Source: Chitinophagaceae bacterium (GTDB lineage: Bacteria > Bacteroidota > Bacteroidia > Chitinophagales > Chitinophagaceae). From it: 64,000 nucleotides of DNA. Of this stretch, positions 4,236 through 50,615 are shown one piece after another; position 1 is the first letter of the stretch, and every line of letters begins with the position of its first letter. Under the pieces are notes generated by a model. The model searched no databases. It was not told the origin of the DNA and saw nothing but the letters and a program-made list of their open reading frames with translations. The stretch is from NCBI GenBank assembly GCA_014879565.1, contig JACSRW010000032.1:1-64000 (forward strand), given 5' to 3'. The position numbers and the translations under genes were made by a program.

Positions 4236-4240
4236 ATCCT

Positions 4241-6145: not shown

Positions 6146-6162
6146 ACCAATAAACTGAGTAT

Positions 6163-7170: not shown

Positions 7171-7178
7171 TTTTCATC

Positions 7179-25503: not shown

Positions 25504-26237
25504 AAACATTCTTCAGCTTTTTGCTCATCTTAGTTTGCTCCGTTTCCGGTGCCCAGTCCCTGCTGGATTCGGTGGGGAATCCGGGTTTTAATCTGCAGGA
25601 TACCCTGGCAGATAAACTGGCCGACCTGGCCGTCAGTAACCGGATGGTGCTGGTGGAGCAACGGGGTCTGGATGTGAAAACCTATGAAATGAAGAAAAAC
25701 AAAGCTGCCTGGCTGAATAATATCGGGGCAAACTTTAACCTGAATGAATCCAATCTGAACAGCAGCGTGAATAATGCCAACCTGTTCTTCCCCCGCTATA
25801 ATCTCAGCCTCAACCTGCCGCTCGGCTTTTTCTTTACCAAGGCCAGGGATGTACAGATTTCCAAGGCCAATATTGAGCTGAAAAAGGCTGAGATGGATGT
25901 AAAGGTTTATGAGATCCGCCAGGCAATCAAGCTGCAATACCAGGCCTATAAGGCCAGTATGTATCTGCTGGCATTACATGAGGCCATCCTGCAGGACGAA
26001 CTGGTGATCTGGAAAAAGACTGAAGCCCGTTTTGCCAAAAATGAAGTAACCCTGGAAACCCTTTCCGATGCTTCCAAAAGGTACCAGGCGGAGCTGGTTA
26101 AAAAAATTAACCTGCTGAAGGATGTGAATACCGCAAAATATGGTCTGGAAAGTCTCCTGGGAATGACCCTGGAGGAAGCCCTGGCAAAGGTTAATCCCCC
26201 TGCAGCGGATCCCCTGCGTCCCGCAGGAGGTCAGTAA
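25500..26237 (+). CDS. Half-length TolC-like outer-membrane export protein
   Basis: The 245-residue protein has a signal peptide ending near SGAQ. After it comes one TolC-type repeat: a helix, a beta-hairpin-like region (GANFNLNES, YNLSLNLPLGFFF), long helices rich in Lys/Glu/Ala (about 115-200) and a closing LLGMTLEEAL. Normal TolC-family proteins contain two such repeats and 400-500 residues. It is coupled to the polymerase gene and no Wza-like exporter is present, so it may be the outer-membrane export component. The last 47 bp overlap the convergent GT2 gene. Confidence 0.7.
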   Translation: MKTFFSFLLILVCSVSGAQSLLDSVGNPGFNLQDTLADKLADLAVSNRMVLVEQRGLDVKTYEMKKNKAAWLNNIGANFNLNESNLNSSVNNANLFFPRYNLSLNLPLGFFFTKARDVQISKANIELKKAEMDVKVYEIRQAIKLQYQAYKASMYLLALHEAILQDELVIWKKTEARFAKNEVTLETLSDASKRYQAELVKKINLLKDVNTAKYGLESLLGMTLEEALAKVNPPAADPLRPAGGQ

Positions 26238-27420: not shown

Positions 27421-27456
27421 ATTCAGGTGTCGATTAATTAATGACGGATAAAAGGG

Positions 27457-28626: not shown

Positions 28627-29303
28627 ATGGTCGGATTCGGTGTGATGATGGACTGCTGAACGGCCACAAGATAAACAAAACCGTCCGTGATTGCCAGCGC
28701 CTGGCAAGATGTTCAGGAACGTGGAAAGTATTTAAAGCAGAGCGTTTTTTTAATTTTTAGTCAATTACTAAGAAAATAGATGGACAAGAAAAAATATTTA
28801 ATATCTATGTGATTGATAATCATTGTCTAAAAATTTTATTTTTCATTCCTTCAAGCCTTGTTTTTTCATTTTGATCCGGATGACCGATTTAGAAGGCCGG
28901 ATCCGGTTGATGAACAGATCCGGTTTCGTATAGAGAAGAAATTTCGATGCAGATTTTCTTGCTCCCGGGGTGATAAAAATCCGAACAATTGTTTGGCCGG
29001 AGACGGTGACTTTTGTTACAAAAGCAACAAGCATCCCTGCTTGTTTTTGATCAATATCCGGGGTGAGAATACACAGCATTTTAACATGTGAATACTATGA
29101 GGATTTGTTTTTTTCCCCACCCTTCGGTTTTGGATTAATTTTTGCAAAAATTAAAACATCCAAAAAGTCCTTGAAACTATTAAGAGTAAATCACATGGCA
29201 TGGCTCGTAAAATTACCTAAAACGCTTTTTTTTCAACCCGTTAATTCAAAATTCAATATCAGATTAACTAATTTGCTCACGAAATCCAAAAATCCTAGTA
29301 GCA
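28627..29303. other. Intergenic region with no supported gene
   Basis: This gap of about 680 bp separates the divergent GT2 operon from the giant PKD-repeat gene. It is AT-rich. Short frames on both strands lack recognisable protein character. It should contain promoters for both directions, but I do not see a clean TTTG-N20-TAnnTTTG match. Confidence 0.6.
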
Positions 29304-32300
29304 ATGACTCCTACCCTGTATTCAAAGGTTAAGTCGGTCTGCCTCTTATGGCTGGCCGCGGTTCTGATTCACATTCCTGTATTCTCCCAACAAACCCTGA
29401 CAACTATTGATGGTTGGAATGCCTATGTGCATTTGCCCGATGATTATGCCACTTCCGGCAGAACCTATCCGGTGATTGTATTTGTTCCGGGTATCGGGGA
29501 AGTGGGCACAGATCATTCAAAGTTACTTACTTATGGGCCTTCCTATTATATAAGTCAGGGAAGTACTATGCAATTTAATGTAAACGGTGTTACAGAGAAA
29601 CCGGTTGTAATATCTATACAACCAACAAGTGCATGGCCTTCCCCAAGTACAATGAATAAGAAAATTGATTCAATAATCAGAAGGTGGCGAATAGACATAA
29701 ATAGAATTTATTTAACTGGATTATCCATGGGGGGGTGTAGCTGGGATAGTTATGTTTCGGATAACACAACTTTTGCAAATCGAATTGCTGCAATTGTTGC
29801 GATGTCGGCTCCTCCTCCTCCAGTGATAGGTAACATGAAGTTTTTTGCAATTACTGGTGGTAAATGGTGGGGTTTTGAAGGAACCACCGATTACCGTTCC
29901 ATGGATAAAGTGCGGGATACCATGAATGCAGCGGTTGCCGGTTCGGCCCGCTATACCCAATATGTGGGTGGTCACTGTTGCTGGAATACCTGGTATAATC
30001 CTGCCTGGACAGAAGCCGGTGATAATATCTACACCTGGATGCTGAAACAAAGCAAAGCGGCCCAGACTGCCAACCAGGCGCCGGTTGCCAATGCAGGCAA
30101 TGACCAGACAATTACTTTACCCCTGAATACGATAACACTGAACGGATCCGGTTCAGACCCGGATGGCACCATCAGTTCCTACCAGTGGAACAAAATTGCC
30201 GGACCGGCCAGTTTCAATATTTCCAGTGCAACAGCTGCCCAGACAGCCGTATTAAGTCTGGTGCAGGGTACCTACCAGTTTGAACTGACCGTTACAGATA
30301 ATCTGGGAGCTTCTGACAAGGATACCATAAATATTTCGGTTCTTCCTCTTTCCGGTCTTCCGGGTTCTGCCAATGCCGGTCCGGATACAGTTATTTACCT
30401 CAACCAGACAAGGCCCGATACCGCCCTGCTGAATGGCAGTGGCTCCACAGGTGCCAGCAGCTATCTCTGGACCCGGATCAGTGGTCCCGGCAGTCCGGTC
30501 ATCCAAAGTCCCGCAGCCGCTGTTTCTTATGTAACCGGCCTGCAGGAAGGTACTTACCGTTTTCAGCTTACTACAAATGCCGCTTTTTTTGATACCATGA
30601 CGGTGGTAGTGCGGGATTTCATGAAGAAAAATATCCGCCCCTGCCGTACCGGTGCCCCCCAGGCTTTTACTCTTGCCAAAAGTGATGCAAACCAGCTTTA
30701 TCGCCCTTACCTTACCCGCGACAATACCGTTCCCGGGCTGATGGGTGGTGATACTTTATATATCCCCGGCGGCACTTACACGACAGGAGTATCTATTGGA
30801 GATATAGGCGGCGGCCCCGGATGTCCAGTTATTATTGCGCCTAAGGACCAACCTGTTGTCATTACAAATAATGGTTTTTTTAGTCTAGCCGACAGGGATA
30901 CGGCAGTAATGTGTTATGTGAGATTTGACGGGACACTTTTAAAGAATAAAGGATTTCCATATGGTTGGGTAGTTGATAACAGCACTTTGCCTTCAACTAG
31001 TGTAACGAGAATAGGATTTGTTGTGAATTGGGCACATCATATTGATATAAGCGGGTTGTACATAAATCATGCAGAACTTGGACTTATGTATAAAATGAAT
31101 GCAAAACCACTTGTACAGGGGCAATTTGATAAGATTCTACTTCGAAGTGTTAAAATTCACGATAACTATATTCGGCGAACCAATGCAGAAGGTATGTATA
31201 TTGGTCATACAGGAGTGTCTGGTGTTGAAGGAGGGAATAGTACCCCTTATGGCCCCCCGCCAAGAATGGATAGTGTTGAAATTTATAATAATATAGTAGA
31301 TAGTACAAGATTAGATGGTATTCAGCTTTCCAATTCTTTGTCTGGATGTAAAATTTATAATAATCTTGTAAGAAATTATGGTGTAGCCAATCAAAGCAGT
31401 CATAGATCTGGGATTCTTTCTGGCGCAAATATTGAGTCCATTAAGATATTTAATAATTTTATTAGCAATGGTACTGGTTCAAGTATTCTTGCATTTGGAT
31501 TTGGTAGCACACAGATTTATCACAATATAACCGATAGTGTAGTTAGTGGCTCAAACACAGAGTATGGAGTTTATCTTCAAAGAAATTCTGTTTACCCGGA
31601 AGTAATATCAACCCTGGTCCCCTTCATCAATGGTAATATATTCAAAAATGCGGAAGCAAGGCCTGTTTATACAGCTGGTGGCGGTGGTGTTTCTGGTGGT
31701 ATTATATCGGATAATTATTTTATAGAAAATGGTTCCAATACTGTGGCTAATAATTCGGGATCTACTGTAACAAATAATACTATAATAAATAGTTTTCCCT
31801 TAGAGCTAAACATTGTACAACCCAATTTTCCTGCATACTATCTGAATGTTACTCAGGCCGATTCCACCCGCAGTTTTACAGATGTGGGCGCAATGGTAGA
31901 CTGGATTTTCTCCCGCCTCAATGTGCCGGCGCCGGCCAACCAGTTGCCGGTAGCTAATGCCGGAGCCGATCAGACGATCACACTTCCTGTGAGCACGGTA
32001 ACGCTGAGCGGAAGTGGTACCGATCCGGATGGCAGTATTACTGCTTATCAGTGGACAAAAATCGCGGGTCCCGCTTCATTTGCAATCACCGCTTCTGCTA
32101 ATCCGGGTACTACCGTAACCGGCCTGGTACAAGGGGTGTACAGATTTGAACTGACCGTAACAGATAATAACGGCGCAACAGATAAAGATACCGTTCAGAT
32201 AACCGTTAACCCGGCTGTCAATCAATTACCTGTTGCCAATGCCGGCGTGGATCAAAGCATCACCCTTCCGGTGAACACCGTAACCCTCAGTGGCAGTGGT

Positions 32301-35300
32301 ACCGACCCGGATGGCAGTATTACCGCTTATCAATGGACAAAAATTGCTGGCCCCGTTTCCGGCACTATCAGCGCTGCGACCAGTGCCAGCACCTCCGTTA
32401 CATCCATGGTGCAGGGCGTTTACCGGTTTGAGCTGACTGTAACAGATAACAGCGGCGCCACCGATAAAGACACGGTACAGGTTACTGTAAATGCTGCTGT
32501 CAATCAGCCGCCGGTGGCTAATGCCGGTGCCGACCAGGTGGTTAACCTGCCGGTAAACAGTACGACTCTCAGTGGCAGTGGTTCTGATCCGGATGGCAGT
32601 ATTACCGCTTATCAATGGACAAAGATCGCCGGACCTGCTTCCGGTTCAATTACAGCTGCATCCAGTGCCAGTACCGGAGTAACCGGTCTTGCCCAGGGTG
32701 TATACCGTTTTGAACTGACAGTAACGGATAACAGCGGCGCTACCGATAAAGATACCGTACAGGTTACCGTAAACGCTTATGTGAACCAGGCCCCGGTTGC
32801 TAATGCCGGAGCGGATCAGGTAGTCACTTTACCTGTTAACACAGTAACATTAAACGGGTCAGGCTCCGATCCTGATGGCAGTATTTCTGCCTATCAATGG
32901 ATAAAAGTTGCAGGTCCTGTTTCCGGCTCCATCACAGCAGCCAGTAACGCCAGCACCGGTGTAACTGCACTGGTACAGGGTGTGTATAGGTTTGAACTGA
33001 CAGTTACAGATAACAGCGGTGCAACGGATAAAGACACCGTACAGGTTACTGTAAATGCAGCCGTCAATCAGCCGCCGGTTGCCAATGCCGGTGCCGACCA
33101 GGTGATTAACCTGCCGGTGAACAGTACTACCCTGAGTGGCAGTGGTTCCGATCCGGATGGAAGTATCAGCGCTTATCAGTGGACTAAAATCGCCGGTCCG
33201 GCATCTGGTACAATTACTTCTCCCGCTGCAGCCAGCACCAGCATTACCAGCCTGGTGCAGGGTGTGTATAGGTTTGAACTGACGGTTACTGACAACAGCG
33301 GTGCCACCGATAAGGATACCGTGCAGGTAACAGTGAACGCGTATGTTAACCAGCCGCCGGTAGCGAATGCCGGTGCAGATCAGGTGATCAACCTGCCGGT
33401 GAACAGTACTACACTCAATGGCAGCGGTTCTGACCCGGATGGAAATATCATCTCTTATAACTGGACAAAAATCTCAGGTCCTTCTCAATACAGTATTACA
33501 GCCTCCGGCAGTGCCAGTACCGGTATCACTTCCCTTGTACAGGGTATTTACCAGTTTGAACTGACGGTAACCGATAACAGCGGCGCCACCGATAAAGATA
33601 CCGTACAGGTTACGGTGAATGCGGCGGTGAATCAGCCTCCGGTAGCCAATGCCGGAACCGACCTGGTAATAACCCTGCCGGTGAACAGTACTACCCTTAG
33701 CGGCAGTGGTTCCGATCCGGATGGCAGTATTACCGCATACCAATGGACAAAAATCGCCGGGCCCGCTTCGGGTTCAATTACAGCTGCATCCAGTGCCAGT
33801 ACCGGGGTAACCGGTCTCACACAGGGTGTATACCGCTTTGAACTGACGGTAACCGATAACAGCGGCGCCACCGATAAAGACACGGTACAGGTAACAGTAA
33901 ACAGCCTCACCAACCAGGCGCCTGTGGCCAATGCCGGTGCCGATATCGTAATCAGCTTACCTGTAAACAGCGCCACCCTGAACGGCAGCGGTTCTGATCC
34001 GGATGGAAATATCACCGCCTACCAGTGGACAAAAATCGCCGGACCGGTGGCCGGTTCAATCAGCTCTCCGGCCAGTGCCAGTACCGGTCTCACCGGCCTG
34101 GTTCAGGGCGTGTACCAATTTGAACTGACCGTGACAGATAATAACGGTGTGACGGATGCCGATACCGTTCAGGTAACCGTGAATGCAGCCATCAACCAGC
34201 TTCCTGTGGCCAATGCCGGTAATGACCAAGTAATTAATCTGCCTGTAAACAGCACTACCCTCAGCGGCAGCGGATCTGACCCGGATGGCAGTATAGTTGC
34301 CTGGCAGTGGATAAAAATCAGTGGCCCCGCCCAGTTTAATATTACAGCGGGTACAAGCGCCAGTACAGGTATCGTCAACCTGGTGCAGGGTGTTTACCGG
34401 TTTGAACTCACCGTTACAGATAACAGCGGTGCCACGGCAAAAGATACCGTACAGGTTACCGTAAATGCCTATGTTAATCAGCTGCCGGTGGCAAATGCCG
34501 GTGCAGATATCACCATCACTCTCCCGGTGAATACCGTTACCCTGAATGGCAGCGGTTCCGACCCGGATGGTACTATCATCTCTTATAACTGGACAAAAAT
34601 TTCTGGTCCTTCACAATACAGCATTACAGCCTCCGGCAATGCCAGTACCGGTGTTACCGCGCTTGTACAGGGCGTATACCAGTTTGAGCTGACTGTTACG
34701 GATAACAGCGGTGCCACGGCAAAAGATACCGTACAGGTAACCGTGAATGCTTCAGTTAACCAGGGCCCGGTTGCCAACGCAGGCGCTGACCAGGTGATTA
34801 ACCTCCCGGTGAACAGTACTACCCTGAATGGCAGTGGTTCTGATCCGGATGGCAGTATCACTGCTTACCAGTGGACAAAAATCAGCGGCCCCGCCCAGTT
34901 TAATATTACAGCGGCCAGCAGTGCCAGCACCGGTATCGTCAACCTGGTGCAGGGTGTTTACCGGTTTGAGCTCACAGTAACCGATAACAGCGGCGCAACA
35001 GCAAAAGATACCGTACAGGTGACTGTGAATGCCTACGTAAACCAGTTACCGCTGGCCAATGCCGGTAATGATCTTGTGATTACTTTACCGGTCAACAGTG
35101 TTACCCTGAACGGTACAGGTTCTGATCCCGACGGCAGCATTGTAGCCTACCTGTGGAATAAAATTTCCGGACCCGCACAATATACCATCACTTCTTCCGG
35201 CAGTGCCAGTACAGGTGTTACCGGTCTGACCGAAGGGTTGTATCAGTTTGAACTGATCGTAACCGATAACAGCGGCGCTACAGACAGGGATACGATGCAG

Positions 35301-36710
35301 GTGACTGTCAATCCCGCTCCGAATCAATTGCCGGTGGCGGATGCCGGCGCTGACAGGGTGATAGTTCTTCCTGTAAACAGCCTGACACTGACCGGAAGCG
35401 GAATGGATCCCGATGGAACCATTGTTTCATACCAATGGAGCAAAGTCGCCGGTCCCGCCCAGTTTGTGGTACTGTCACCCCTGAGCGCCCAGACATTTGT
35501 CAATAACCTGGTGCAGGGTGTATACCTGTTTGAACTGACGGTTACCGATAACAGCGGCGCCACCGATAAAGATACCGTACAGGTAACCGTGAATCCTTTT
35601 GTGAACCTGGCGCCCACTGCTTACGCGGGAGCGGATATTGTGATCACACTTCCGGTGAACAGTGTAACATTAAATGGCAGCGGTTCCGATGCTGATGGCA
35701 CGATTGCCAGCTATCGCTGGACGAAAGTATCCGGTCCTTCCCAGTACAGTATTACCAATACAGCCAATGCCAGCACCGGCGCCACCGGTCTGGTTCAGGG
35801 TGTATACCAGTTTGAACTGATGGTAACTGACAACTATGGGGCTACCGGTACGGATACGGTACAGGTAACGGTGAACAGTGCCGTTAACCAGGCCCCTGTT
35901 GCGCACGCAGGAAATGATATTACCATTACCCTGCCCGTAAACAGTACTACCCTGAATGGTACGGGCTCTGATCCGGATGGAACAATCACATCTTACCGCT
36001 GGACAAAACTGACCGGCCCCGCCCAATACAGTATCAGCGCAGCCACCAGTGCCAGTACCGGTGTTACCGGACTGGTGAACGGAATCTACCAGTTTGAGCT
36101 GACTGTTACGGATAACAGCGGTGCCACGGCGAAAGATACCGTACAGGTAACTGTGAATGCTATTCCGAATAATGCACCTGTGGCCAATGCCGGTGCTGAT
36201 CAGCAGATCACCCTGCCGCTTAATAAGGTGACCCTCACAGGTACTGCTACTGACAGCGACGGCACGATTGCCGGCTACCGCTGGACAAGAATTTCAGGAC
36301 CTGTATCCTATCAGATTGACTCCGCCCTGAGTGCCCGCACACAGGTACAGAATCTGGAAGAAGGTGATTACCTGTTTGAGCTGCTGGTAACCGATAACCT
36401 GGGCGCCACAGACAGAGATACAGTGAAAGTAACCGTATTACCTGCTCCGGCTGCTTCCAGGCTGGCCATTTATCCCAACCCGGCAGTAAATGAGCTGATC
36501 ATTGAACTCAATACCGTCACTTTCCAGAACAAAACTCCTGTCCGGATTTATGATATGGCCGGCACTATGGTTTACCAGACAGAAGTGATGCGCAATCAAC
36601 CCCAGATGATCCTGCGGGTGGATGTAAGCAAGTTCCCGAGAGGAAGTTATATTGTACAGGTGGGACTTGACATCAACCGCAACGGAGTGATGAAGTTTGT
36701 AAAACACTGA
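29304..36710 (+). CDS. Giant secreted protein: esterase head, beta-helix-like region, 16 PKD-type repeats, T9SS tail
   Basis: The 2468-residue protein has a signal peptide (1 to about 28, ending PVFSQ). An alpha/beta-hydrolase domain (about 30-250) shows VFVPGIGEVG, the nucleophile in TGLSMGG and a His in GGHCCWNTW. One good PKD-type module (from residue 257) and one degenerate one follow. Residues of about 440-865 are rich in Asn/Gly/Ile strands (IYNNIVDS, KIFNNFISNG), like a right-handed beta-helix. Then come 16 tandem modules (residues 879-2382) and a T9SS type A sorting domain (LAIYPNPAVNELIIEL to the end). Length and repeats suggest a surface adhesin or stalk. The esterase head is of the same general type as in the protein at 11430. 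Confidence 0.88.
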   Translation: MTPTLYSKVKSVCLLWLAAVLIHIPVFSQQTLTTIDGWNAYVHLPDDYATSGRTYPVIVFVPGIGEVGTDHSKLLTYGPSYYISQGSTMQFNVNGVTEKPVVISIQPTSAWPSPSTMNKKIDSIIRRWRIDINRIYLTGLSMGGCSWDSYVSDNTTFANRIAAIVAMSAPPPPVIGNMKFFAITGGKWWGFEGTTDYRSMDKVRDTMNAAVAGSARYTQYVGGHCCWNTWYNPAWTEAGDNIYTWMLKQSKAAQTANQAPVANAGNDQTITLPLNTITLNGSGSDPDGTISSYQWNKIAGPASFNISSATAAQTAVLSLVQGTYQFELTVTDNLGASDKDTINISVLPLSGLPGSANAGPDTVIYLNQTRPDTALLNGSGSTGASSYLWTRISGPGSPVIQSPAAAVSYVTGLQEGTYRFQLTTNAAFFDTMTVVVRDFMKKNIRPCRTGAPQAFTLAKSDANQLYRPYLTRDNTVPGLMGGDTLYIPGGTYTTGVSIGDIGGGPGCPVIIAPKDQPVVITNNGFFSLADRDTAVMCYVRFDGTLLKNKGFPYGWVVDNSTLPSTSVTRIGFVVNWAHHIDISGLYINHAELGLMYKMNAKPLVQGQFDKILLRSVKIHDNYIRRTNAEGMYIGHTGVSGVEGGNSTPYGPPPRMDSVEIYNNIVDSTRLDGIQLSNSLSGCKIYNNLVRNYGVANQSSHRSGILSGANIESIKIFNNFISNGTGSSILAFGFGSTQIYHNITDSVVSGSNTEYGVYLQRNSVYPEVISTLVPFINGNIFKNAEARPVYTAGGGGVSGGIISDNYFIENGSNTVANNSGSTVTNNTIINSFPLELNIVQPNFPAYYLNVTQADSTRSFTDVGAMVDWIFSRLNVPAPANQLPVANAGADQTITLPVSTVTLSGSGTDPDGSITAYQWTKIAGPASFAITASANPGTTVTGLVQGVYRFELTVTDNNGATDKDTVQITVNPAVNQLPVANAGVDQSITLPVNTVTLSGSGTDPDGSITAYQWTKIAGPVSGTISAATSASTSVTSMVQGVYRFELTVTDNSGATDKDTVQVTVNAAVNQPPVANAGADQVVNLPVNSTTLSGSGSDPDGSITAYQWTKIAGPASGSITAASSASTGVTGLAQGVYRFELTVTDNSGATDKDTVQVTVNAYVNQAPVANAGADQVVTLPVNTVTLNGSGSDPDGSISAYQWIKVAGPVSGSITAASNASTGVTALVQGVYRFELTVTDNSGATDKDTVQVTVNAAVNQPPVANAGADQVINLPVNSTTLSGSGSDPDGSISAYQWTKIAGPASGTITSPAAASTSITSLVQGVYRFELTVTDNSGATDKDTVQVTVNAYVNQPPVANAGADQVINLPVNSTTLNGSGSDPDGNIISYNWTKISGPSQYSITASGSASTGITSLVQGIYQFELTVTDNSGATDKDTVQVTVNAAVNQPPVANAGTDLVITLPVNSTTLSGSGSDPDGSITAYQWTKIAGPASGSITAASSASTGVTGLTQGVYRFELTVTDNSGATDKDTVQVTVNSLTNQAPVANAGADIVISLPVNSATLNGSGSDPDGNITAYQWTKIAGPVAGSISSPASASTGLTGLVQGVYQFELTVTDNNGVTDADTVQVTVNAAINQLPVANAGNDQVINLPVNSTTLSGSGSDPDGSIVAWQWIKISGPAQFNITAGTSASTGIVNLVQGVYRFELTVTDNSGATAKDTVQVTVNAYVNQLPVANAGADITITLPVNTVTLNGSGSDPDGTIISYNWTKISGPSQYSITASGNASTGVTALVQGVYQFELTVTDNSGATAKDTVQVTVNASVNQGPVANAGADQVINLPVNSTTLNGSGSDPDGSITAYQWTKISGPAQFNITAASSASTGIVNLVQGVYRFELTVTDNSGATAKDTVQVTVNAYVNQLPLANAGNDLVITLPVNSVTLNGTGSDPDGSIVAYLWNKISGPAQYTITSSGSASTGVTGLTEGLYQFELIVTDNSGATDRDTMQVTVNPAPNQLPVADAGADRVIVLPVNSLTLTGSGMDPDGTIVSYQWSKVAGPAQFVVLSPLSAQTFVNNLVQGVYLFELTVTDNSGATDKDTVQVTVNPFVNLAPTAYAGADIVITLPVNSVTLNGSGSDADGTIASYRWTKVSGPSQYSITNTANASTGATGLVQGVYQFELMVTDNYGATGTDTVQVTVNSAVNQAPVAHAGNDITITLPVNSTTLNGTGSDPDGTITSYRWTKLTGPAQYSISAATSASTGVTGLVNGIYQFELTVTDNSGATAKDTVQVTVNAIPNNAPVANAGADQQITLPLNKVTLTGTATDSDGTIAGYRWTRISGPVSYQIDSALSARTQVQNLEEGDYLFELLVTDNLGATDRDTVKVTVLPAPAASRLAIYPNPAVNELIIELNTVTFQNKTPVRIYDMAGTMVYQTEVMRNQPQMILRVDVSKFPRGSYIVQVGLDINRNGVMKFVKH
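31938..36449 (+). repeat. 16 tandem 282-bp PKD-type repeats inside the giant gene
   Basis: Each unit encodes 94 residues starting N-Q-x-P-V-A-N-A-G-x-D and containing SGSDPDG, a YxW core, GVYRFELTVTDN or GVYQFELTVTDN and KDTVQVTVN. The first copy begins at 31938 and the sixteenth at 36168, exactly 15 x 282 bp apart, so register is kept without net indels. Copies 3-11 are most alike in DNA; copies 12-16 diverge more toward the C-terminus. Such modules usually form extended rods. Confidence 0.92.
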
Positions 36711-36933: not shown

Positions 36934-38622
36934 TTATTGCTTAACGATCTTCTGGGTTTCCAGGATACGGCCTTCTTTATAAATCACCAGTTGATACATT
37001 CCGGGTGCCATCCGGCTCATATTGATTTCATGATAACCTGGTTGCAGTTGCATGGATTTGATACTGCGGCCGGCCAGGTCAGTCAGGATCACGCGAATAT
37101 CATCGGCCTGTACCTGCAGTTGCAAACGGTCTCTTACCGGGTTCGGGAGGGCAGTTACCGATACCAGGCCGGCTTTGCCGAATTTCACGAGTCGTACGGC
37201 GGAGATAGCGGATTTGCCATCTACATCCGACTGGCGGATCCGGTAATAATTACTCTTCTGCAGATCCGGCAGGTTATGTGTAAAGCTGTATTTGCTGAGG
37301 CTGTTGCTGTTGCCGGCTGCGTTAACCGTACCCAGGGGCAGGTAATCGCGGCCATTGGAAGAATACTCAATCGTAAAATGCGTAACATTGGTTTCCTGCA
37401 GGGTCTCCCAGTTCAGCACAACCTGATTATTGCGGGCTAAAGCAATGAAGCTGCCCCAGACGGCGGGAAGAGGGAAAGATGCATTTTTTGTTACTTCCAC
37501 AGCTGTAGCACCAATGGGAGTTACAAGTGAATAATTAGATCCGGAAACAAAAGTGGGAGTTCCGGAAAATGTGCCAGTAGTAGTCAGCACGGTATAGTTC
37601 TGTAAAGGTGCAGGAGGGGCAACAGAGAAATCCTGAATATTAATGGTTACACCTGTTAAGTTCACGTTAGCGGTAAAACGTAATTGATCATGCCCGGTTC
37701 CGACTCCTGAACCGTCAACAACTTCAGCCTGAATGGTTGTTGGCTGCCCTTGTACAAGATTGGAAGATACAGTCAGGATGCCAGGTGAGTTTCCCGGAGC
37801 GATTATGCCTGAATTTGAAGGGGGAGCATCACATTGAAATGTGCCAATACCTTTTATTGTACCATTATTTGTAAAAATTACTGTGGCATAAATTTCCATA
37901 AGGAAGGTGGTTGTTTTATTTATTATGCCGTTATTAATAAATGTAGCAGTGCCTCCCCCATTTACAGCAATTCCACGATTATTGCTTTGGAATTGTTCAT
38001 TAATGGTTCCATTATTAATTAAACTAGCACCATTAACAATACCAATGCCGCCTGCTGTACTTCCAGTTTGCCAGTTCATTGTCCCATTGATAGTAAGTGT
38101 CGTGTTTAAGAGTTTTGCAAAATTCTCACTCAGGTTTAACGTACCGGCACCGCCGATTGTAGTAGCCACATTCATTGTACCATTCCTCCAGTTCATCGTG
38201 CCGTTTACCTGTACGGAGGGCGCTGCTCCGGCAGCTGCCAGGGTATTTGCTACAGTTACAGAACCTAAATTATAGGTGCCATTTACAAGAAGGTCGGTTC
38301 CGGTGCCATCGTTTACAGTCAGGTTGGCGCCGGACTGATTATTTGTTAATGTACCGCCCGCGTCAACGGTAACCTGGTCAATCGTAACAGAAGCTGTAAC
38401 AGTTACTGTATGTCCGTTTTGAATAGTGATAGCCCCATCCAGTGAGGAGGGAGTACTGGGGGCGGGAGTTACCCATATAGCACCGTCATAACGTTCCCAG
38501 GTAGCTGTATTGTTCCAGTTACCGGTAGCGACAGAACGGAAGTCTCCAAGTGATTGTCCCCATAAGGCCGTGGGGAAAAGGAGTAAACACAGGGCTTTAA
38601 TGATCGTAGATGTCTGATTCAT
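36934..38622 (-). CDS. Secreted beta-helix-like protein with T9SS sorting domain
   Basis: The 562-residue protein has a signal peptide ending near ALWGQ. An early GNWNNTATWERYDGAIW segment and ITIQNGHTVTV are typical of T9SS cargo with G8-like or autotransporter-like repeats. Repeated short strands rich in Asn/Gly/Thr (INNGTINE, FTNNGTIKGIG) follow to about residue 340. An Fn3-like module (VVLNWETLQETNVTHFTIEYS) and the sorting domain (ALPNPVRDRLQLQV, APGMYQLVIY) end the protein. The function is unknown; it is probably displayed on or released from the cell surface. The middle third is more AT-rich than the ends. Confidence 0.82.
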   Translation of the reverse strand: MNQTSTIIKALCLLLFPTALWGQSLGDFRSVATGNWNNTATWERYDGAIWVTPAPSTPSSLDGAITIQNGHTVTVTASVTIDQVTVDAGGTLTNNQSGANLTVNDGTGTDLLVNGTYNLGSVTVANTLAAAGAAPSVQVNGTMNWRNGTMNVATTIGGAGTLNLSENFAKLLNTTLTINGTMNWQTGSTAGGIGIVNGASLINNGTINEQFQSNNRGIAVNGGGTATFINNGIINKTTTFLMEIYATVIFTNNGTIKGIGTFQCDAPPSNSGIIAPGNSPGILTVSSNLVQGQPTTIQAEVVDGSGVGTGHDQLRFTANVNLTGVTINIQDFSVAPPAPLQNYTVLTTTGTFSGTPTFVSGSNYSLVTPIGATAVEVTKNASFPLPAVWGSFIALARNNQVVLNWETLQETNVTHFTIEYSSNGRDYLPLGTVNAAGNSNSLSKYSFTHNLPDLQKSNYYRIRQSDVDGKSAISAVRLVKFGKAGLVSVTALPNPVRDRLQLQVQADDIRVILTDLAGRSIKSMQLQPGYHEINMSRMAPGMYQLVIYKEGRILETQKIVKQ

Positions 38623-38844: not shown

Positions 38845-39441
38845 TCAGTTCCGGAAGGGTTTCCAGTGCGGGTTTTTAGCCAGTTTCAGCATGGGTAAAT
38901 CCCCTTTGGTATCGCCGTAGGCATGTACAATTTCTGTCTCCCCGGCGGGGTATATTTCCCCGACCCGTCTTACTTTTTCCAGCCCATGACAGTTCCGGCC
39001 CTCAATCCGGCCGGTAATCGTTCCTCCGTTTTGCTGCAGCCGGGTGCCGATCAGGCTGATGCCGGTGGCGGAAGTCCAGCCTGCCAGCCAGTTTTCGGGA
39101 GAAGCCGAAACCAGCACCACTTCAATACCCTCCTTTTGCAACTCCCGGATCTCTTGCAGCGCGGCTGGTCTGACGATATCAGGAATATAATTCTGCGCAA
39201 AATCCCGGCACCAGGCATCAAATTTTTCCAGCGGGGTGCCGGCAAAATAAAACCGTAAGACCCATTCCTTCGCCCGGTGGTTGCTGACAAGTTTTGCCTT
39301 GAGGGCTATCAGCAGGGGCGACAACAGCAAAAATCCCAGGTAAAAGGAAACAGCCCCCCTGGTAAAACGGATAAAGGCAAGGAGGCTGTCTTCTCTGGTG
39401 ATCGTGCCGTCAAAATCAAAAAGGGCTATCTTTTTTTTCAC
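38845..39441 (-). CDS. HAD-IB phosphatase, probable member of the arabinose-lipid pathway
   Basis: The 198-residue protein has HAD motif I FDFDGTITRED, motif II VSASP and the C-terminal acidic motif GDTKGDLPML, as in phosphoserine-phosphatase/CicA-type HAD-IB enzymes. Its start overlaps the stop of the DprE2-like gene by 4 bp, so it is translationally coupled to a pathway whose second step removes the 5-phosphate from polyprenyl-phosphoryl-5-phosphoribose. It is therefore a good candidate for that step; this is inference from position. Another small phosphate ester could be the real substrate. Confidence 0.8.
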   Translation of the reverse strand: MKKKIALFDFDGTITREDSLLAFIRFTRGAVSFYLGFLLLSPLLIALKAKLVSNHRAKEWVLRFYFAGTPLEKFDAWCRDFAQNYIPDIVRPAALQEIRELQKEGIEVVLVSASPENWLAGWTSATGISLIGTRLQQNGGTITGRIEGRNCHGLEKVRRVGEIYPAGETEIVHAYGDTKGDLPMLKLAKNPHWKPFRN

Positions 39442-40181
39442 AGCTTTTTCTTTTTAAAGATCCCCTCGGGTATCATCCGGATGATACACATGATCCATTT
39501 CCAGAACCATTTTACATAGAGGATATTTTTTTTCTTTTGAATACCCTTGTACACGGCATCGGCCACGGCGGCCGGCTGTGCCGTCAGCAGACCGGGCAGC
39601 GCAAGGTGGGCGGTCATTTTGGTATACACAAAACCCGGCAGCACGGTCATCACATGTACGCCATGGGGATAAAGACGGTTCCGCAGTCCGGAGAGATACG
39701 CAATAAAACCAGCCTTGGCGCTTCCGTAAATAAAATTGCTCTGGCGCCCGCGTAAGCCGGCTACCGAACTGATCCCGGCAATGGTACCCTGTCCGGCCTT
39801 TATATATTCCTCCGCCACGGCATTCAGCAGTACTGCCGGACCAAGATAATTGGTTACGATGGTACGCTCGGTTTCCACCCCGTCGCGGAATACTTTTTCA
39901 TTGTCATTCATATAACCCACCACAGAAATGGTAATACCCGGTTTTTCCGGAAGCTGATTCCAGATACCCGCCAGTTTACCGGTCTCAGTAATATCCATTT
40001 CCAGTAAACTGCAGGGAATGTTGTAACGGATTTCCAGGTCGGCTTTCTGGGGTAAAAGGCGGGAACTATTCCGTGCGGCCAGGAGGAGGGGGTGTCCCTC
40101 CCGGGCAAAACGTTCGGCGATGGCCGCTCCGATATCGGAGCCGGCCCCAATAATTAGTACAGTGGCTTTCATACAATTCAA
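39438..40181 (-). CDS. Short-chain dehydrogenase, DprE2-like
   Basis: The 247-residue SDR has the cofactor motif GAGSDIGAAIAERFA, a serine in AGISSVAG and the catalytic pair in YGSAK. In the known pathway DprE2 reduces the 2-keto intermediate made by DprE1 to polyprenyl-phosphoryl-D-arabinose. It overlaps the DprE1-like gene by 4 bp upstream and the HAD gene by 4 bp downstream. The next Met (40172) is an alternative start. The C-terminus is basic and hydrophobic (KWFWKWIMCIIRM), which may hold it at the membrane. Confidence 0.85.
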   Translation of the reverse strand: MNCMKATVLIIGAGSDIGAAIAERFAREGHPLLLAARNSSRLLPQKADLEIRYNIPCSLLEMDITETGKLAGIWNQLPEKPGITISVVGYMNDNEKVFRDGVETERTIVTNYLGPAVLLNAVAEEYIKAGQGTIAGISSVAGLRGRQSNFIYGSAKAGFIAYLSGLRNRLYPHGVHVMTVLPGFVYTKMTAHLALPGLLTAQPAAVADAVYKGIQKKKNILYVKWFWKWIMCIIRMIPEGIFKKKKL

Positions 40182-41512
40182 TTGCTGGTGAGGTGGAGCC
40201 TGTCGGACTGCAGGGAACGGAAACGGTATCCCGGGTTGTATTTGTTAACGACCGACCGGAATTCATCCAGGCGTTCATAACTTTTTTCCAGGACTGAGGG
40301 TTTCATACGCGCATCTTTCGACATGTATAAACGGCCTCCGTAAGCCAGGACCAGTTCGTCCAGTTCATCCAGGAAGGGCATCAGACCGTCCCGGACCGGG
40401 ATGTCCAGGGCCAGCGTATAACCTTCCCGGGGGAAAGAGATGAGGTCGTCCTGGTGACCGAATACTTTCAGCACCGCCAGGAAGGAGCCGATTCCCTTAT
40501 CGCTGATCCGGTGGAGGATCTTAATCAGGCCATCCTTGCTGGCCAGCGGTATAACAAACTGGTACTGGATAAATCCTTTTTTGCCGTAACCCCGGTTCCA
40601 GAGATGAACGGCATCAAGGGGGTAAAAGAAAGGTTCGTAAGGAATCACATTATTGATTTCCTTTTTCAGGTTTTTGTGGTAAAACAGAAAATTAAACGCT
40701 TTTACCGTGAGTTTATTCAAAACGAATGAAGGCAGGTTAAACGGGAAGGTGATCTGTTTCCGTTTGGGCAGCTCCAGGGGTTTATTCTTTTTGGAAGCAG
40801 GCAGATCCGCCAGGGTAGCATGTTCGCCCAGCATCAGGATACTGCGGCCGAAACCCTTGCCTTTTTTCAGGCAGTCTATCCATGCCACCGAGTAGGTGTA
40901 GTGTTTATTCTCTTCAAAAAGCCGGATTATCTCCGTGAGATTTTCCGCCTTCAGCTGTTTTTGTTTAATATAGGCGGTTTCAATTTTTTTAAGCCGGAAT
41001 TTCACGCGGCTGATCACCCCGGTAAGCCCCATGCCACCGCAGGTGGCCCAGAAAAGATCGCTGTTATTATCGGGTGAACAGGTAAACAGTTCCCCGTTGT
41101 GGGTAACCACATCCATATCCACTACCTGGGCAGAAAAAGAGCCGTCCACATGGTGATTTTTTCCGTGCACATCACTGGCTACCGCGCCGCCCACGGTAAT
41201 AAACTTGGTGCCGGGAGTTACCGGCAGAAACCATCCTTTGGGTACGATGATATCCAGGATCCGGTCGAGAGTCATACCCGACTGGCACTCAAAAATGCCT
41301 TTTTCGGTATCAAAATAAAGCGCCCGGTTATAGGGCAGGGTACAAAGTGTTTTGGGAGCCAGCGAGGCGTCACCGTAGCAGCGTCCGTAGCCCCTGGCGA
41401 TAAACGAGTCATTGTTTTTAACATAGTCCCGGAGTTCGTCCAGGAGGGTGACCGTCGTTTCATCGCTTTCGATCCGGGGATAGTTTCCCCAGTTGGCTAT
41501 TTGCTTTTTCAT
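40178..41512 (-). CDS. FAD-dependent oxidoreductase, DprE1-like
   Basis: The 444-residue protein has an FAD-binding-4 domain with FIARGYGRCYGDAS, the PVTPGTKFITVGG and GGAVASDVHGKNHH motifs, and a C-terminal substrate domain with FLAVLKVFG and GGRLYMSKDAR. These match decaprenylphosphoryl-beta-D-ribose 2-oxidase. By eye, the position of mycobacterial Cys387 falls in YTLALDIP and is Ala here; the lysine of the following KD motif is kept. It would oxidise the ribose 2-hydroxyl of the lipid-linked sugar. It overlaps the UbiA-type gene by 4 bp. Confidence 0.88.
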   Translation of the reverse strand: MKKQIANWGNYPRIESDETTVTLLDELRDYVKNNDSFIARGYGRCYGDASLAPKTLCTLPYNRALYFDTEKGIFECQSGMTLDRILDIIVPKGWFLPVTPGTKFITVGGAVASDVHGKNHHVDGSFSAQVVDMDVVTHNGELFTCSPDNNSDLFWATCGGMGLTGVISRVKFRLKKIETAYIKQKQLKAENLTEIIRLFEENKHYTYSVAWIDCLKKGKGFGRSILMLGEHATLADLPASKKNKPLELPKRKQITFPFNLPSFVLNKLTVKAFNFLFYHKNLKKEINNVIPYEPFFYPLDAVHLWNRGYGKKGFIQYQFVIPLASKDGLIKILHRISDKGIGSFLAVLKVFGHQDDLISFPREGYTLALDIPVRDGLMPFLDELDELVLAYGGRLYMSKDARMKPSVLEKSYERLDEFRSVVNKYNPGYRFRSLQSDRLHLTSN

Positions 41513-42399
41513 GTAAAAAGGGTTAAGTCTTTCAGGTACAGAATACCGGCGAAACTCGCGATCCAGAGCAGGAGAGTGATTTTGATGAAATGATCCCTGT
41601 AGAGGATTTTGGTAGGGGAGCCGGAATCCTGCATTACAAAAATAATCTGTAAGTAACGCATGATACCCGCAATCACAAAAAGACAGGTATAATAGAGCCG
41701 GTGGGTGCCCAGTCTTTCAATGGTGGCCGGCGACATGGTGTACATAAAATAGGCAACAATGATCACGGCGCATACCAGCGCCAGTAACACATTCAGGTAT
41801 TCCAGGTTATAGCCTTTCACGGCCTTGCGCATTTCGGTGCCAGACTGGATTTTCAGCAACACATCATCTCTTCGTTTGCCAATCGCCATAAACAGCGCCA
41901 GCAGGAAGACCATGATCACAATCCATTCAGACAAAGGGGTGAAACTGATTACCGAGCCGGCCTTGATCCGCAGGATAAATCCGGCTGCAAGAATCAGTAT
42001 ATCCAGTACCGGTATGGTTTTTAACCCGAATGAATAACCGAGATTCAGCAGGAAATAAATACCCAGTACAAAGAGAAATTTGTCGCGGATAAACCAGGCA
42101 ATACCCAGTCCCCCGATCAGCAGGAGCAGGAAGAGTCCAATGGCAACAGTGCCGGAAAGGGCGCCTCGGGCAAGCGGCCTGTTTTTTTTCACCGGATGTT
42201 TCCGGTCATCTTCCCGGTCACGGTAGTCATTAATAATATAAATGCTGCTGGCTACCAGCGAAAAAGCGACAAATCCCAGTGCCAGGGACGCAATTTTATC
42301 GGTATCGGCTATTTCACCGGCGAAGAAAACCGGGAGGAACAAAAAAAGATTTTTTGCCCAGTCTTTGGGACGAATTAACTGTAGGATGGCTTTTACCAT
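41509..42399 (-). CDS. UbiA-family polyprenyl-phosphate phosphoribosyltransferase-like protein
   Basis: The 296-residue protein has about eight to nine membrane segments. RPKDWAKNLFLFLP, the Asp-rich NDYRDREDD with KNRPLARG and the second motif GLKTIPVLDILIL-AGFILR match decaprenyl-phosphate phosphoribosyltransferase (Rv3806c-like) better than ubiquinone-pathway UbiA. It would join polyprenyl phosphate to phosphoribosyl pyrophosphate, the committed step toward lipid-linked D-arabinose. It is the first gene of the four-gene overlapping operon and is divergent from the membrane protein at 42489. Confidence 0.88.
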   Translation of the reverse strand: MVKAILQLIRPKDWAKNLFLFLPVFFAGEIADTDKIASLALGFVAFSLVASSIYIINDYRDREDDRKHPVKKNRPLARGALSGTVAIGLFLLLLIGGLGIAWFIRDKFLFVLGIYFLLNLGYSFGLKTIPVLDILILAAGFILRIKAGSVISFTPLSEWIVIMVFLLALFMAIGKRRDDVLLKIQSGTEMRKAVKGYNLEYLNVLLALVCAVIIVAYFMYTMSPATIERLGTHRLYYTCLFVIAGIMRYLQIIFVMQDSGSPTKILYRDHFIKITLLLWIASFAGILYLKDLTLFT

Positions 42400-42488: not shown

Positions 42489-44126
42489 ATGAACCGATCC
42501 GGCCAGTCCTTCCGCTTCCCTTTTTCGTTGATGGAGCTCTTAGTTATTGTATTACTGGCAATTGTGCCATTATTTGTTCAGTTTCCCTACCGGGTGAATA
42601 TTTTTCTTTCCTGGGAGGGGGCCTATCGTATCAGTGAAGGGCAGCTCCCTTTCCGGGACTTCGGAACCCCGCTGGGTGGAATGTACTGGGTAATACCCGG
42701 TCTTTTCTTTAAACTCTTCGGCACGCAACTGATCACGCTGGTAAAAGCCCAGGTATTTATCAATATTGTTTCCGGTCTCGCTTTCCGTTCCATCTTAAAA
42801 TCATTTGGCCTGGCGGATGGTCTGCGGTTTGTGTCTGTACTGCTTTATGCAGTTTCTTTTTCCTTTTTTAATTTCTGGCCCTGGTATAACCACACCGTAA
42901 TTGTGTATGAGTTTGCAGGTCTGGCCTTTCTCTGCAACGCGCTGATGGCCGGTAGCGGTTCCCGGTTTTTTTATCTCAAACTGACTGCAGCCGCCTTTTT
43001 TACGGTTTGTTCTTTTCTCACTAAACAGGACGCAGGGGGTATGGCAGTGGCCATTTCCCTGGCGCTGACAGGCTGGAGTCTGATCAGCGGACGGGAATGG
43101 AAACCGGTTTTGTTCTGGCTGCTTTCTTTCTCGGTGATTTTATTTTTGTTCATTGCGCCCTTCCTGGGCAGCGGGTTCGGATACTGGTTCAATCACGGAC
43201 AGGCTCCGCATTCCGCCCGTATTTCTCCGGGAGAAATCATCATGGACCTGCTCAGTGGTTCGCAGTGGATTAAATTCTATGCCCTGCTGATCCTGCTGTT
43301 GCTTTTCGTTCGGTTTGCGTCCTTCAAAGCCTTGTGGAATGACCGGAAAGAAATGCTGTTCCTGTTGCTTACCACGGGAATTCTTACGGAAGCCGCCGTA
43401 TTCCAGGTGACCAGTTATACTCCGCCTGACAATAATATTTTCTTCCATGCTTTCGCGATTGCCTATATCCTGTATCAGTTTACCGCGCTGGCGCCTTCCC
43501 TGTTGAACCGGAAGCTGGTGCCGTTTGTATTATCAGCAGCGGTCTTATTCTGGTGGAGCGGGGTGTTTTCCAAATATATTCTCCGGTTTATACCCGGGCA
43601 GGAATCCGCTGTTGCCACACTTTCTCCCACGGGAGAAAACCTGGTAAACCGGAAAACCTATATGCTGACCCCGCCCGACAGTTCAGAATCGGAAATGCGG
43701 CAATGGGTGAGCTGCGGATTAAAGGCATTTGACAAAATTTCAATGCCCCCCTCCACAGCGGAGGGAATCCGCCGGCTGATGGCTTCTGACCTGGTGAAAA
43801 GCGGCCGGGATTTGCGGGTGCTGAATATGAGTGAACTGACCCCGCTGGCGGTGGAAATGCCCTACCGGACCGAGACCGGAGCGCATTACCCCCTGTGGAA
43901 TCATCTCGGGGTAGGTATGTTTAATAAACAGGCGGAACTATTTGAGGGCAGAATTGCAAAAAAAGACTACGACCTGGTTTTATTTGAATATATACCCAGC
44001 CTGAATAATTTTTTCCCGTTCCGGGTACGGGACTCCTTGAAAATTCATTACCGTCTGGCCGATCAGTTTGCGGCGCCCAGGCGGGGCGATACCAAGGGAA
44101 CAATTGAAGTGTATGTCAGGCCCTGA
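42489..44126 (+). CDS. Multi-pass membrane protein, possible GT-C glycosyltransferase
   Basis: The 545-residue protein has about 10-11 hydrophobic segments and a soluble C-terminal domain (about 395-545). An early periplasmic loop with an acidic residue followed by YRISEGQLPFRDFGTPLG resembles the first loop of GT39/ArnT-like enzymes, which use polyprenyl-phosphate sugars as donors. Divergence from the arabinose-lipid operon by 89 bp suggests it could use that lipid sugar. A TATGTTTA (42462-42469) upstream resembles a -7 box. Family identity is tentative. Confidence 0.65.
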   Translation: MNRSGQSFRFPFSLMELLVIVLLAIVPLFVQFPYRVNIFLSWEGAYRISEGQLPFRDFGTPLGGMYWVIPGLFFKLFGTQLITLVKAQVFINIVSGLAFRSILKSFGLADGLRFVSVLLYAVSFSFFNFWPWYNHTVIVYEFAGLAFLCNALMAGSGSRFFYLKLTAAAFFTVCSFLTKQDAGGMAVAISLALTGWSLISGREWKPVLFWLLSFSVILFLFIAPFLGSGFGYWFNHGQAPHSARISPGEIIMDLLSGSQWIKFYALLILLLLFVRFASFKALWNDRKEMLFLLLTTGILTEAAVFQVTSYTPPDNNIFFHAFAIAYILYQFTALAPSLLNRKLVPFVLSAAVLFWWSGVFSKYILRFIPGQESAVATLSPTGENLVNRKTYMLTPPDSSESEMRQWVSCGLKAFDKISMPPSTAEGIRRLMASDLVKSGRDLRVLNMSELTPLAVEMPYRTETGAHYPLWNHLGVGMFNKQAELFEGRIAKKDYDLVLFEYIPSLNNFFPFRVRDSLKIHYRLADQFAAPRRGDTKGTIEVYVRP

Positions 44127-49921: not shown

Positions 49922-50590
49922 TCAGGGCATACGCACGATGCCGTCATCTACCAGCGCAAATATCAGTTCGTCTTTGGAGGGTTGTACCGGATAGCCGCCG
50001 GTAAAACGGCTGAAAGCCGGTAATATGGCATAGTCAGCAGTGAAATAAAAACAGGGAAAGCGGAGAGACTGCTTCCCTTTGCCTTTCAGGGATACAGCCG
50101 GATGCAGGTGACCGGCAAAACGGTAAGCCTTTTTTTCCGCGGAACTGAGTTCTTTTTCCGCTTTCAGATCGTGCAGGAAAAGAAAAGGCCCGGCATGCAT
50201 TTTCCATTCATGAACCCGGATGGCGGCTGATTGGTACCAGTCATTTTCCAGGATATCATGGTTCCCTTTCACGAGGTCAATATGCAGGGAAGAAAAATCT
50301 TTCCGCCAGCGTTGAAAAAGTTCCAGTTCCTTATTGGCCGTACTGTGCGTGAAATCACCTGCAATGATCAGCCTGTCGGCTTTATAGAGATACAACTGAG
50401 CCATCAGCCTTTGCAGGTCGGCTTTATATACAGATTGGGGAATGCCAATACCTTCTTTACGGAAATGGCCCGATTTGCCCAGGTGCAGATCGGCGACAAG
50501 CAGGGTGTTTTCTTCTTCCCAGAATATACAGCGCTCGGGAGAAATCCAAAGGGTTTGCTGACGAATAATATGTGGTAAAGGGTTTTTCAT
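49922..50590 (-). CDS. pdeM: Ligase-associated metallophosphoesterase PdeM
   Basis: The 222-residue calcineurin-like phosphoesterase has metal motifs VADLHLGKS, IIAGDFTHS, VKGNHDIL, LFLHDLK and FAGHLHPAV. This pattern and the helicase next to it match the ligase-associated DNA damage response set. It lies 25 bp downstream of the helicase gene. Its stop abuts the stop of the convergent CBM9-like gene with no spacer. It probably cleaves nucleic acid phosphodiesters. Confidence 0.9.
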   Translation of the reverse strand: MKNPLPHIIRQQTLWISPERCIFWEEENTLLVADLHLGKSGHFRKEGIGIPQSVYKADLQRLMAQLYLYKADRLIIAGDFTHSTANKELELFQRWRKDFSSLHIDLVKGNHDILENDWYQSAAIRVHEWKMHAGPFLFLHDLKAEKELSSAEKKAYRFAGHLHPAVSLKGKGKQSLRFPCFYFTADYAILPAFSRFTGGYPVQPSKDELIFALVDDGIVRMP

Positions 50591-50615
50591 TACGGGGCGG
50601 GCAAATCTAAAAAAA

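Follow-up and report, generated by a model that had tools for sequence, protein, structure and literature searches.

Lipid-linked D-arabinofuranose (D-Araf) is made in mycobacteria by the decaprenyl-phosphate D-arabinose (DPA) pathway, which includes Rv3806c, Rv3790 (DprE1) and Rv3791 (DprE2). Related genes have been described in other bacteria. In the noeCNHOP system for Nod-factor arabinosylation, UbiA, DprE1 and DprE2 homologues lie in one operon (PMC5080398). In Pseudomonas paraeruginosa, PSPA7_6245-6251, including ubiA, are genes for a D-Araf glycan with pilin as the acceptor (PMC12369383). General three-component extracytoplasmic pentofuranose systems with a HAD phosphatase and a GT-C glycosyltransferase were set out by Kelly et al. 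(2024), and DprE1/E2 homologues were reported in systems for Araf-containing glycans (PMC11127046). Here a 64,000-nucleotide stretch of DNA from a Chitinophagaceae bacterium (the window; positions 1 to 64,000 of contig JACSRW010000032.1, assembly GCA_014879565.1) was analysed. It carries a four-gene operon for UbiA-type, DprE1-like, DprE2-like and HAD proteins, a divergently coded GT-C-fold protein beside it, and an exopolysaccharide locus. It is rather likely that the operon provides lipid-P-D-Araf and that the GT-C protein uses this in the periplasm to decorate the adjoining exopolysaccharide; the outer slime of this bacterium probably carries D-arabinose as a decoration.

A preliminary description of the operon had called the pathway best known from mycobacterial cell walls. 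The donor pathway itself is not new outside them, being known for rhizobial Nod factors, Pseudomonas pilins and others (PMC5080398, PMC12369383, PMC11127046). The same description predicted a D-Araf-containing surface glycan. A candidate transferase and a candidate acceptor for it come from two features that the description overlooked, the neighbouring GT-C gene and the exopolysaccharide locus.

Compared with the mycobacterial pathway, the window codes for three homologous enzymes with the same proposed order and with catalytic residues kept. The carrier is probably undecaprenyl rather than the decaprenyl of the preliminary description, undecaprenyl phosphate being the usual lipid carrier in such bacteria. 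Further differences are an Ala in place of Cys387 in DprE1, a GT-C protein in which sequence kinship to one AftA was not found, and a HAD phosphatase instead of the mycobacterial Rv3807c, which was described as unrelated to HAD phosphatases (PMC11127046). With the three-component systems the window shares a polyprenyl phosphoribose synthase, a HAD-type phosphatase and a GT-C protein; its HAD is a gene of its own, whereas that of Citrobacter is fused, its operon is without a flippase gene, and an exopolysaccharide locus stands in place of the O antigen (PMC11127046). The word 'Bacteroid' is absent from the main text of that paper.

The noe operon was read in a plasmid of Agrobacterium pusense (L105; record IRBL74_p, assumed to be Rhizobium sp. 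IRBG74). It has a GtrA protein and a last-gene transferase taken as NoeP, with no detectable kinship to the window GT-C, and, unlike the window, no annotated HAD gene. Gene 2 of this operon (L105:5579-6001) belongs to the GtrA family (Pfam, 5.8e-9). It is noeN if the gene order follows the name noeCNHOP, in which case a lipid flippase fits better than the phosphatase suggested for noeN (PMC5080398). The Pseudomonas genes were likened by description, and their pilin acceptor is unlike the exopolysaccharide proposed here (PMC12369383). Among the papers listed from open-licence PubMed Central (PMC) literature, judged mostly by titles and the starts of abstracts, none was found to describe, for Bacteroidota, either a D-Araf pathway or an exopolysaccharide carrying D-arabinose; the sole D-arabinose passage of one review concerns a sponge-derived polysaccharide (PMC4052302). 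As far as those papers show, the GT-C family is undescribed, as is the tie of GT-C and donor module to the exopolysaccharide locus and its type IX secretion system (T9SS) proteins.

The donor operon and its distribution

Four open reading frames (ORFs) fill the minus strand of 38845-42399 in the order UbiA, DprE1, DprE2, HAD (Table 1), and the ORFs and their profile scores bear out the four-gene set given in the preliminary description. The 4-bp overlaps claimed at every junction are present at UbiA/DprE1 (ATGA) and DprE2/HAD (GTGA). At DprE1/DprE2 the overlap depends on the TTG at 40181 as the DprE2 start; with the alternative ATG at 40172 the protein has 244 aa and the overlap is gone. DprE2 lengths over 75 rows, one of them an artefact of 4 aa, were 243 aa in 27, 241 in 22 and 245 in 11. 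The 244-aa form matches these relatives, and translation may start there. A promoter scan gave 6 sites against 6.9 in shuffles, no excess; a terminator scan gave 11 against 7.8 and no lead.

UbiA passed NCBIfam NF008978 (213 bits, cut-off 207) and scored below cut-off on NF008977 (231, cut-off 234) and NF008976 (177, cut-off 474). Its closest PDB protein by sequence was Rv3806c (8j8j, 2.3e-40). Residues N73, D74, D77, D81, H84, K87, K191 and R192 (Rv3806c numbers), among them the active-site NDxxDxxxD motif and KR pair, were identical in 82/82 rows besides Mycobacterium tuberculosis (Mtb). For the second protein, the closest PDB entry was DprE1 (3.3e-84), the next other oxidase being at 1e-10, and R58, Y60, H132, G133, K134, Q334, K367, Y415 and K418 were conserved in the alignment. 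The third passed the short-chain dehydrogenase/reductase (SDR) model NF005489 (305 bits, cut-off 267); its top PDB match was DprE2 (21gq_C, 3e-24), with other SDRs close behind (6e-24), and Ser139, Tyr152 and Lys156 were conserved. The names 'DprE1-like' and 'DprE2-like' are used because NCBI's narrow DprE1 and DprE2 models were not passed. The HAD protein passed TIGR01490 (121 bits, cut-off 98.3), matched PF12710 and carries DFDGT and GDTKGD motifs, which fit DxDGT and GDxxxD.

Position 387 of Mtb DprE1 is a cysteine, the target of covalent benzothiazinones. It corresponds to Ala368 in the window protein, and Mtb Asn385 to Thr. Over the 98 rows besides Mtb, position 387 was Ala in 92, Thr in 4 and Cys in 2, with Ala in the noe operon row; the window DprE1 thus lacks this cysteine, as do 96 of the 98.

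Trees of UbiA, DprE1 and DprE2 were made as quick searches on rows chosen by the authors (40/83, 54/99 and 41/93, window and Mtb included). All 54 DprE1 rows, mycobacterial enzymes included, formed one clade separate from two FAD oxidases that the genome also codes for (support 100), and all 41 DprE2 rows, again with the mycobacterial enzymes, one clade against nine same-genome SDRs (support 100). The 40 UbiA rows, Rv3806c among them, stood apart from the genome's three UbiA paralogues (support 88, long outgroup branches). This is the phylogeny against Rv3806c, Rv3790 and Rv3791 which had been proposed as a check: the three proteins group with the mycobacterial enzymes and not with unrelated UbiA, FAD-oxidase or SDR clades. 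The nearest solved proteins, the catalytic residues and the trees support the donor-pathway reading, and the predicted UbiA, DprE1 and DprE2 steps are strongly supported by kinship to studied enzymes. The HAD protein is proposed as lipid-P-ribose 5-phosphate phosphatase from its linkage and family.

Other origins were set aside. The UbiA tree speaks against an ordinary UbiA of menaquinone or heme synthesis, and the DprE1 and DprE2 trees speak against membership of generic FAD oxidase or SDR clades. Derivation of the entire operon from mycobacteria was also set aside, the mycobacterial rows having long branches and an unsure place within a wide family.

Locus counts were made on the 80 best of 586 DprE1 relatives in named genomes, many of these loci being cut by contig ends, with genes scored as present at E<=1e-10. 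All four of UbiA, DprE1, DprE2 and HAD were present in 41/80 loci, an association exceeding chance, and UbiA, DprE1 and DprE2 in a further 26; the HAD gene was present in 42 and the GT-C gene in 12. The module and GT-C were both seen in Paraflavitalea pollutisoli (L004) and Chitinophaga fulva (L015). The donor set is widespread, since these 80 best relatives span Bacteroidota, Campylobacterota, Pseudomonadota, cyanobacteria, Kiritimatiellota and others. At E<=1e-50, a DprE1 relative was found in 62/296 sampled genomes of the phylum, a count that takes in relatives down to 31% identity, and in 37/147 genomes of the window's family. One sampled genome of the window's genus was without one.

Family genomes also hold a further class of DprE1, diverged from the window protein (41-44% identity) and lying away from the operon, at L085, L087, L089, L091, L093 and L099. 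It accompanies the usual copy in genomes G343 and G372, is the sole copy in nine family genomes, and was placed beside the mycobacterial enzymes in the tree (support 89, long branches). A 53.6-kb Flammeovirgaceae plasmid (L108, CP139022.1) carries UbiA, DprE1, DprE2, Wzc, GT2, acyltransferase and T9SS esterase-like proteins, and at least part of the system can therefore be mobile. GT-C, HAD and Wzy were not seen in the 25 kb of this plasmid that were read.

The divergent GT-C protein and its inheritance with DprE1

For the product of 42489-44126, NCBIfam gave nothing, Pfam nothing of weight, and a sequence search of the PDB nothing meaningful; Pfam over 12 GT-C rows returned scattered weak matches only, one of them Wzy_C at 0.0028. 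Its structure model (pLDDT 75.3, pTM 0.81) was searched with Foldseek, which placed ArnT first (9.7e-4) and AftA third (2.5e-3). With a second structure aligner a protein O-mannosyltransferase was top (Z 19.5, 4.2 Å over 350 residues); ArnT (Z 14.9, 5.2 Å, 430 residues), EmbB (13.4, 5.2 Å, 424), AftB (12.5, 5.1 Å, 398) and AftA (12.2, 5.3 Å, 447) were also matched, and the structural matches include OST. As modelled, the protein has a GT-C fold, and the matches include the lipid-phosphate-sugar transferases ArnT, AftA, Emb and AftB. Invariant in the 12 rows, window included, were W42-E43-G44-A45, D57, K179-Q180-D181 and H241.

Joint inheritance with DprE1 is the strongest evidence on the role of this protein. 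GT-C was found in 35/147 family genomes, comprising 35/37 with DprE1 and 0/110 without (Fisher 8e-32, a value inflated by shared descent). In the phylum draw (296 genomes) it was found in 7, all among the 62 with DprE1. Nine family genomes have a diverged sole DprE1 (42-46% identity), yet GT-C was present in 9/9, with the DprE1 on another contig than GT-C or, in G392, 1.7 Mb away. Seven of the genomes with diverged DprE1 were inspected. In six (L084, L086, L088, L097, L098, L100), UbiA, DprE2, HAD and GT-C formed one cluster whose UbiA-DprE2 gap (12-197 bp) leaves no space for DprE1; G409 (L090, L092) was the exception, with GT-C separate from UbiA, DprE2 and HAD. Among six genera with two listed members differing in DprE1, GT-C differed likewise in five (g1, g4, g10, g142, g158).

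The Wzy of the exopolysaccharide locus follows a similar pattern. The initiating transferase, Wzx, Wzy, Wzc and outer-membrane export protein are all present in 2104-28707 (Pfam matches over cut-off), methyltransferases are also coded there, and by its predicted gene content this part of the window is a Wzx/Wzy exopolysaccharide locus. Its Wzy type, taken at 245 bits or more, a threshold chosen after the score list had been inspected (gap 236 to 249), was found in 33/37 genomes with DprE1 and 3/110 without; weaker, more distant Wzy relatives reverse the pattern (1/37 and 29/110). The esterase domain of the secreted T9SS proteins was found in 35/37 and 12/110, respectively. Genome G115 was searched for DprE1 and GT-C only. 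Wzy lay within 40 kb of GT-C in at least 16/35 genomes (0.6 expected under even placement) and an esterase within 25 kb in at least 22/35 (1.4 expected), counting listed places on the GT-C contig only, so that genomes in many contigs were scored as unlinked.

Ten family genomes (G292, G343, G367, G389, G390, G327, G371, G409, G377, G364) were inspected; they were picked for a Wzy on the GT-C contig, so that the tally is not independent. Nine of them had many of the exopolysaccharide genes known from the window in the same stretch as GT-C; in G364 only part of them were near it, with Wzy 33 kb off. DprE1 was missing from the GT-C stretch in G371, G389 and G364, and in G409 GT-C was the sole module gene there. 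In named genomes, Wzy and OEP genes adjoin DprE1, DprE2 and GT-C at L016 and L021 and all five genes at L057, and plasmid L108 shares part of the exopolysaccharide locus beside its donor genes.

Genomes G323, G348 and G413 have the Wzy type and esterases without DprE1, and D-Araf therefore looks like an optional decoration of the exopolysaccharide rather than part of its backbone. The esterases were rejected as D-Araf-specific enzymes: because they are also present in 12 genomes without DprE1, they appear to follow exopolysaccharide type rather than D-Araf.

At L004, L005, L007, L011, L013, L084, L094 and L100, recG and the gene of a large ENKGQWD-type protein border the module at its GT-C end, with recG named by NCBIfam in 2 of the eight. 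In part of the family the module's chromosomal site is fixed.

Proposed pathway and alternative acceptors

In the proposed pathway, UbiA would join phosphoribosyl pyrophosphate (PRPP) and polyprenyl phosphate to lipid-P-ribose 5-phosphate, from which the HAD enzyme would remove the 5-phosphate. DprE1 (FAD) would then oxidise C2 of lipid-P-ribose, and DprE2 (NAD(P)H) would reduce it back with opposite stereochemistry, giving lipid-P-D-Araf. After flipping by a transporter, D-Araf would be transferred in the periplasm by the divergent GT-C to the polymer of the adjoining Wzx/Wzy locus, and the exopolysaccharide would be exported and worked on by the secreted T9SS esterases. We infer the substrate chemistry of each step, the flipping, the transferase activity of GT-C, the acceptor and D-arabinose itself. 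For a wider statement, that the unnamed GT-C family with the UbiA/DprE1/DprE2/HAD module D-arabinosylates a conserved Bacteroidota exopolysaccharide and that the T9SS esterases are part of one system, the chances appear evenly balanced. Its scope would be Chitinophagaceae, Cyclobacteriaceae and kin, with a related plasmid cluster in which GT-C was not seen.

If so, a donor pathway whose study has centred on its value as a drug target would also serve to decorate exopolysaccharides in environmental bacteria, mycobacterium-like sugar chemistry would occur in a slime polymer, and a new glycosyltransferase family would gain a predicted donor, acceptor and partner genes. The D-arabinan-degrading enzymes found by screening gut Bacteroidetes would gain possible non-mycobacterial substrates (PMC10115798).

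Besides the inflated Fisher values, the following weigh against this pathway. The best NCBIfam model for DprE1, NF053785, gave 434 bits, under its equivalog cut-off of 500, which was reached by 1/14 control genomes; DprE2 scored 163 bits on equivalog NF053786, cut-off 250. For GT-C, hhalign with one AftA sequence gave a probability of 0.2, comparison with NoeP and with a plasmid neighbour showed no detectable sequence kinship, and the fold class alone tells neither donor nor acceptor. The operon has no flippase gene, and the single GtrA match in this genome lies on a different contig, SMR/EmrE-type transporters not having been searched. Strict coupling is contradicted by several genomes: this Wzy type was not matched in G319 and G368, which have GT-C and DprE1, and was matched only partially in G410, while G342 (86% complete) and G349 carry DprE1 but no GT-C. 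G431 is without the esterase, and in genus g193 (G349 and G429) DprE1 differs and GT-C does not. The control gene PdeM (49922-50590), found in 106/147 family genomes, leaned weakly the same way as GT-C (33/37 with DprE1, 73/110 without, p 0.01). In the window, lpxB lies 173 bp past GT-C, and it lies 3.7 kb from the GT-C copy in L092.

The position of lpxB bears on an acceptor other than the exopolysaccharide. The same D-Araf could serve lipopolysaccharide or another envelope glycan, the exopolysaccharide locus being merely a frequent neighbour. A Citrobacter pentofuranose system decorates the O antigen of lipopolysaccharide (PMC11127046), lpxB is 6.4 kb from the diverged DprE1 in L089, and in eight loci the GT-C neighbours are recG and a T9SS-like protein instead. 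This appears improbable, since lpxB was near GT-C in only 2/23 GT-C loci compared, and the association of the Wzy type and the esterases with DprE1 holds also where they are unlinked to GT-C. Slightly better placed, though still unlikely, is transfer by the same GT-C from the same donor to secreted or surface proteins such as the adjacent T9SS cargo. Genes for two proteins with T9SS tails separate the exopolysaccharide genes from the operon, the esterase proteins follow the module and are often near GT-C (counts above), protein O-mannosyltransferases have the highest structural Z, and D-Araf on the pilins of Pseudomonas paraeruginosa is a precedent (PMC12369383). Set against these are the structural matches to ArnT, AftA and Emb, by which GT-C also resembles polysaccharide and lipid modifiers, and the genomes G323, G348 and G413, in which the esterases track the Wzy type even without D-Araf.

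The product itself could also differ, DprE1 and DprE2 making another pentose or the route ending at lipid-P-ribose. The scores under the equivalog cut-offs and the Thr and Ala at Mtb positions 385 and 387 would fit this, but the same Ala is found in 92/98 DprE1 rows, including that of the noe operon of a Nod-factor-arabinosylating rhizobium, the catalytic residues are conserved, and both proteins fall inside the DprE clades; such a product is very unlikely. These readings overlap in part, and their likelihoods need not sum to one. Decoration of the exopolysaccharide with D-Araf by the GT-C protein is the reading preferred here.

Features of the window

Table 1. Positions of the genes discussed, in window coordinates.
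Feature	Position	Strand	Basis or remark
Initiating sugar-phosphate transferase	2104-3246	+	PF02397; TIGR03025 253 bits, cut-off 296
GT2, asparagine-synthase-like amidotransferase (TIGR03108-like), sugar epimerase, GT4	3330-8312	+	
Secreted T9SS protein: alpha/beta-hydrolase, fn3, LamG, sorting tail	11430-17978	+	PF02230 (at cut-off), PF00041, PF13385, PF18962
Wzc-like chain-length tyrosine autokinase	18048-20258	+	PF13614 over cut-off; TIGR01007 76 bits, below cut-off
Membrane O-acyltransferase (Acyl_transf_3)	20278-21351	+	Second at 10037-11236
Wzx-like flippase	21348-22697	+	PF13440
TuaH-like glycosyltransferase	22703-23893	+	NF047676 88 bits, below cut-off
Wzy-like polymerase	24073-25503	+	PF04932
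Outer-membrane efflux (OEP) protein of export machinery	25500-26237	+	PF02321
Two GT2 glycosyltransferases	26191-28707	-	PF13641, PF00535
Secreted T9SS protein: esterase-like alpha/beta-hydrolase domain, PKD repeats, sorting tail	29304-36710	+	PF22352, PF18962
T9SS-tailed secreted protein between exopolysaccharide genes and operon	36934-38622	-	TIGR04183; relatives in L088, L090
HAD-IB phosphatase, proposed polyprenyl-phosphoryl-ribose-5-phosphate phosphatase	38845-39441	-	198 aa, GTG start
DprE2-like 2-keto-pentose reductase (SDR)	39438-40181	-	247 aa with TTG start
DprE1-like polyprenyl-phosphoryl-ribose 2-oxidase (FAD)	40178-41512	-	444 aa
UbiA-type polyprenyl-phosphate 5-phosphoribosyltransferase (Rv3806c type)	41509-42399	-	296 aa
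GT-C-fold membrane protein, candidate D-arabinofuranosyltransferase, unnamed family	42489-44126	+	545 aa; predicted fold and joint inheritance

The esterase-like domain of the larger secreted protein (29385-30059) matched PDB 4q82 (1.7e-10). This protein has 2468 aa, is secreted and contains 18 matched PKD-like repeats. The hydrolase of the other T9SS protein is the genome's second match to the esterase-like domain family and lies inside the exopolysaccharide locus. For the amidotransferase (4241-6145) the nearest model was TIGR03108, of the XrtA/PEP-CTERM type (533 bits, cut-off 817); no exosortase turned up among the locus proteins scanned, no search aimed at exosortases having been made. 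No tRNA was found in the 64-kb window. PdeM, of ligase-associated DNA repair, adjoins an Lhr-type helicase (window 49922-53084).

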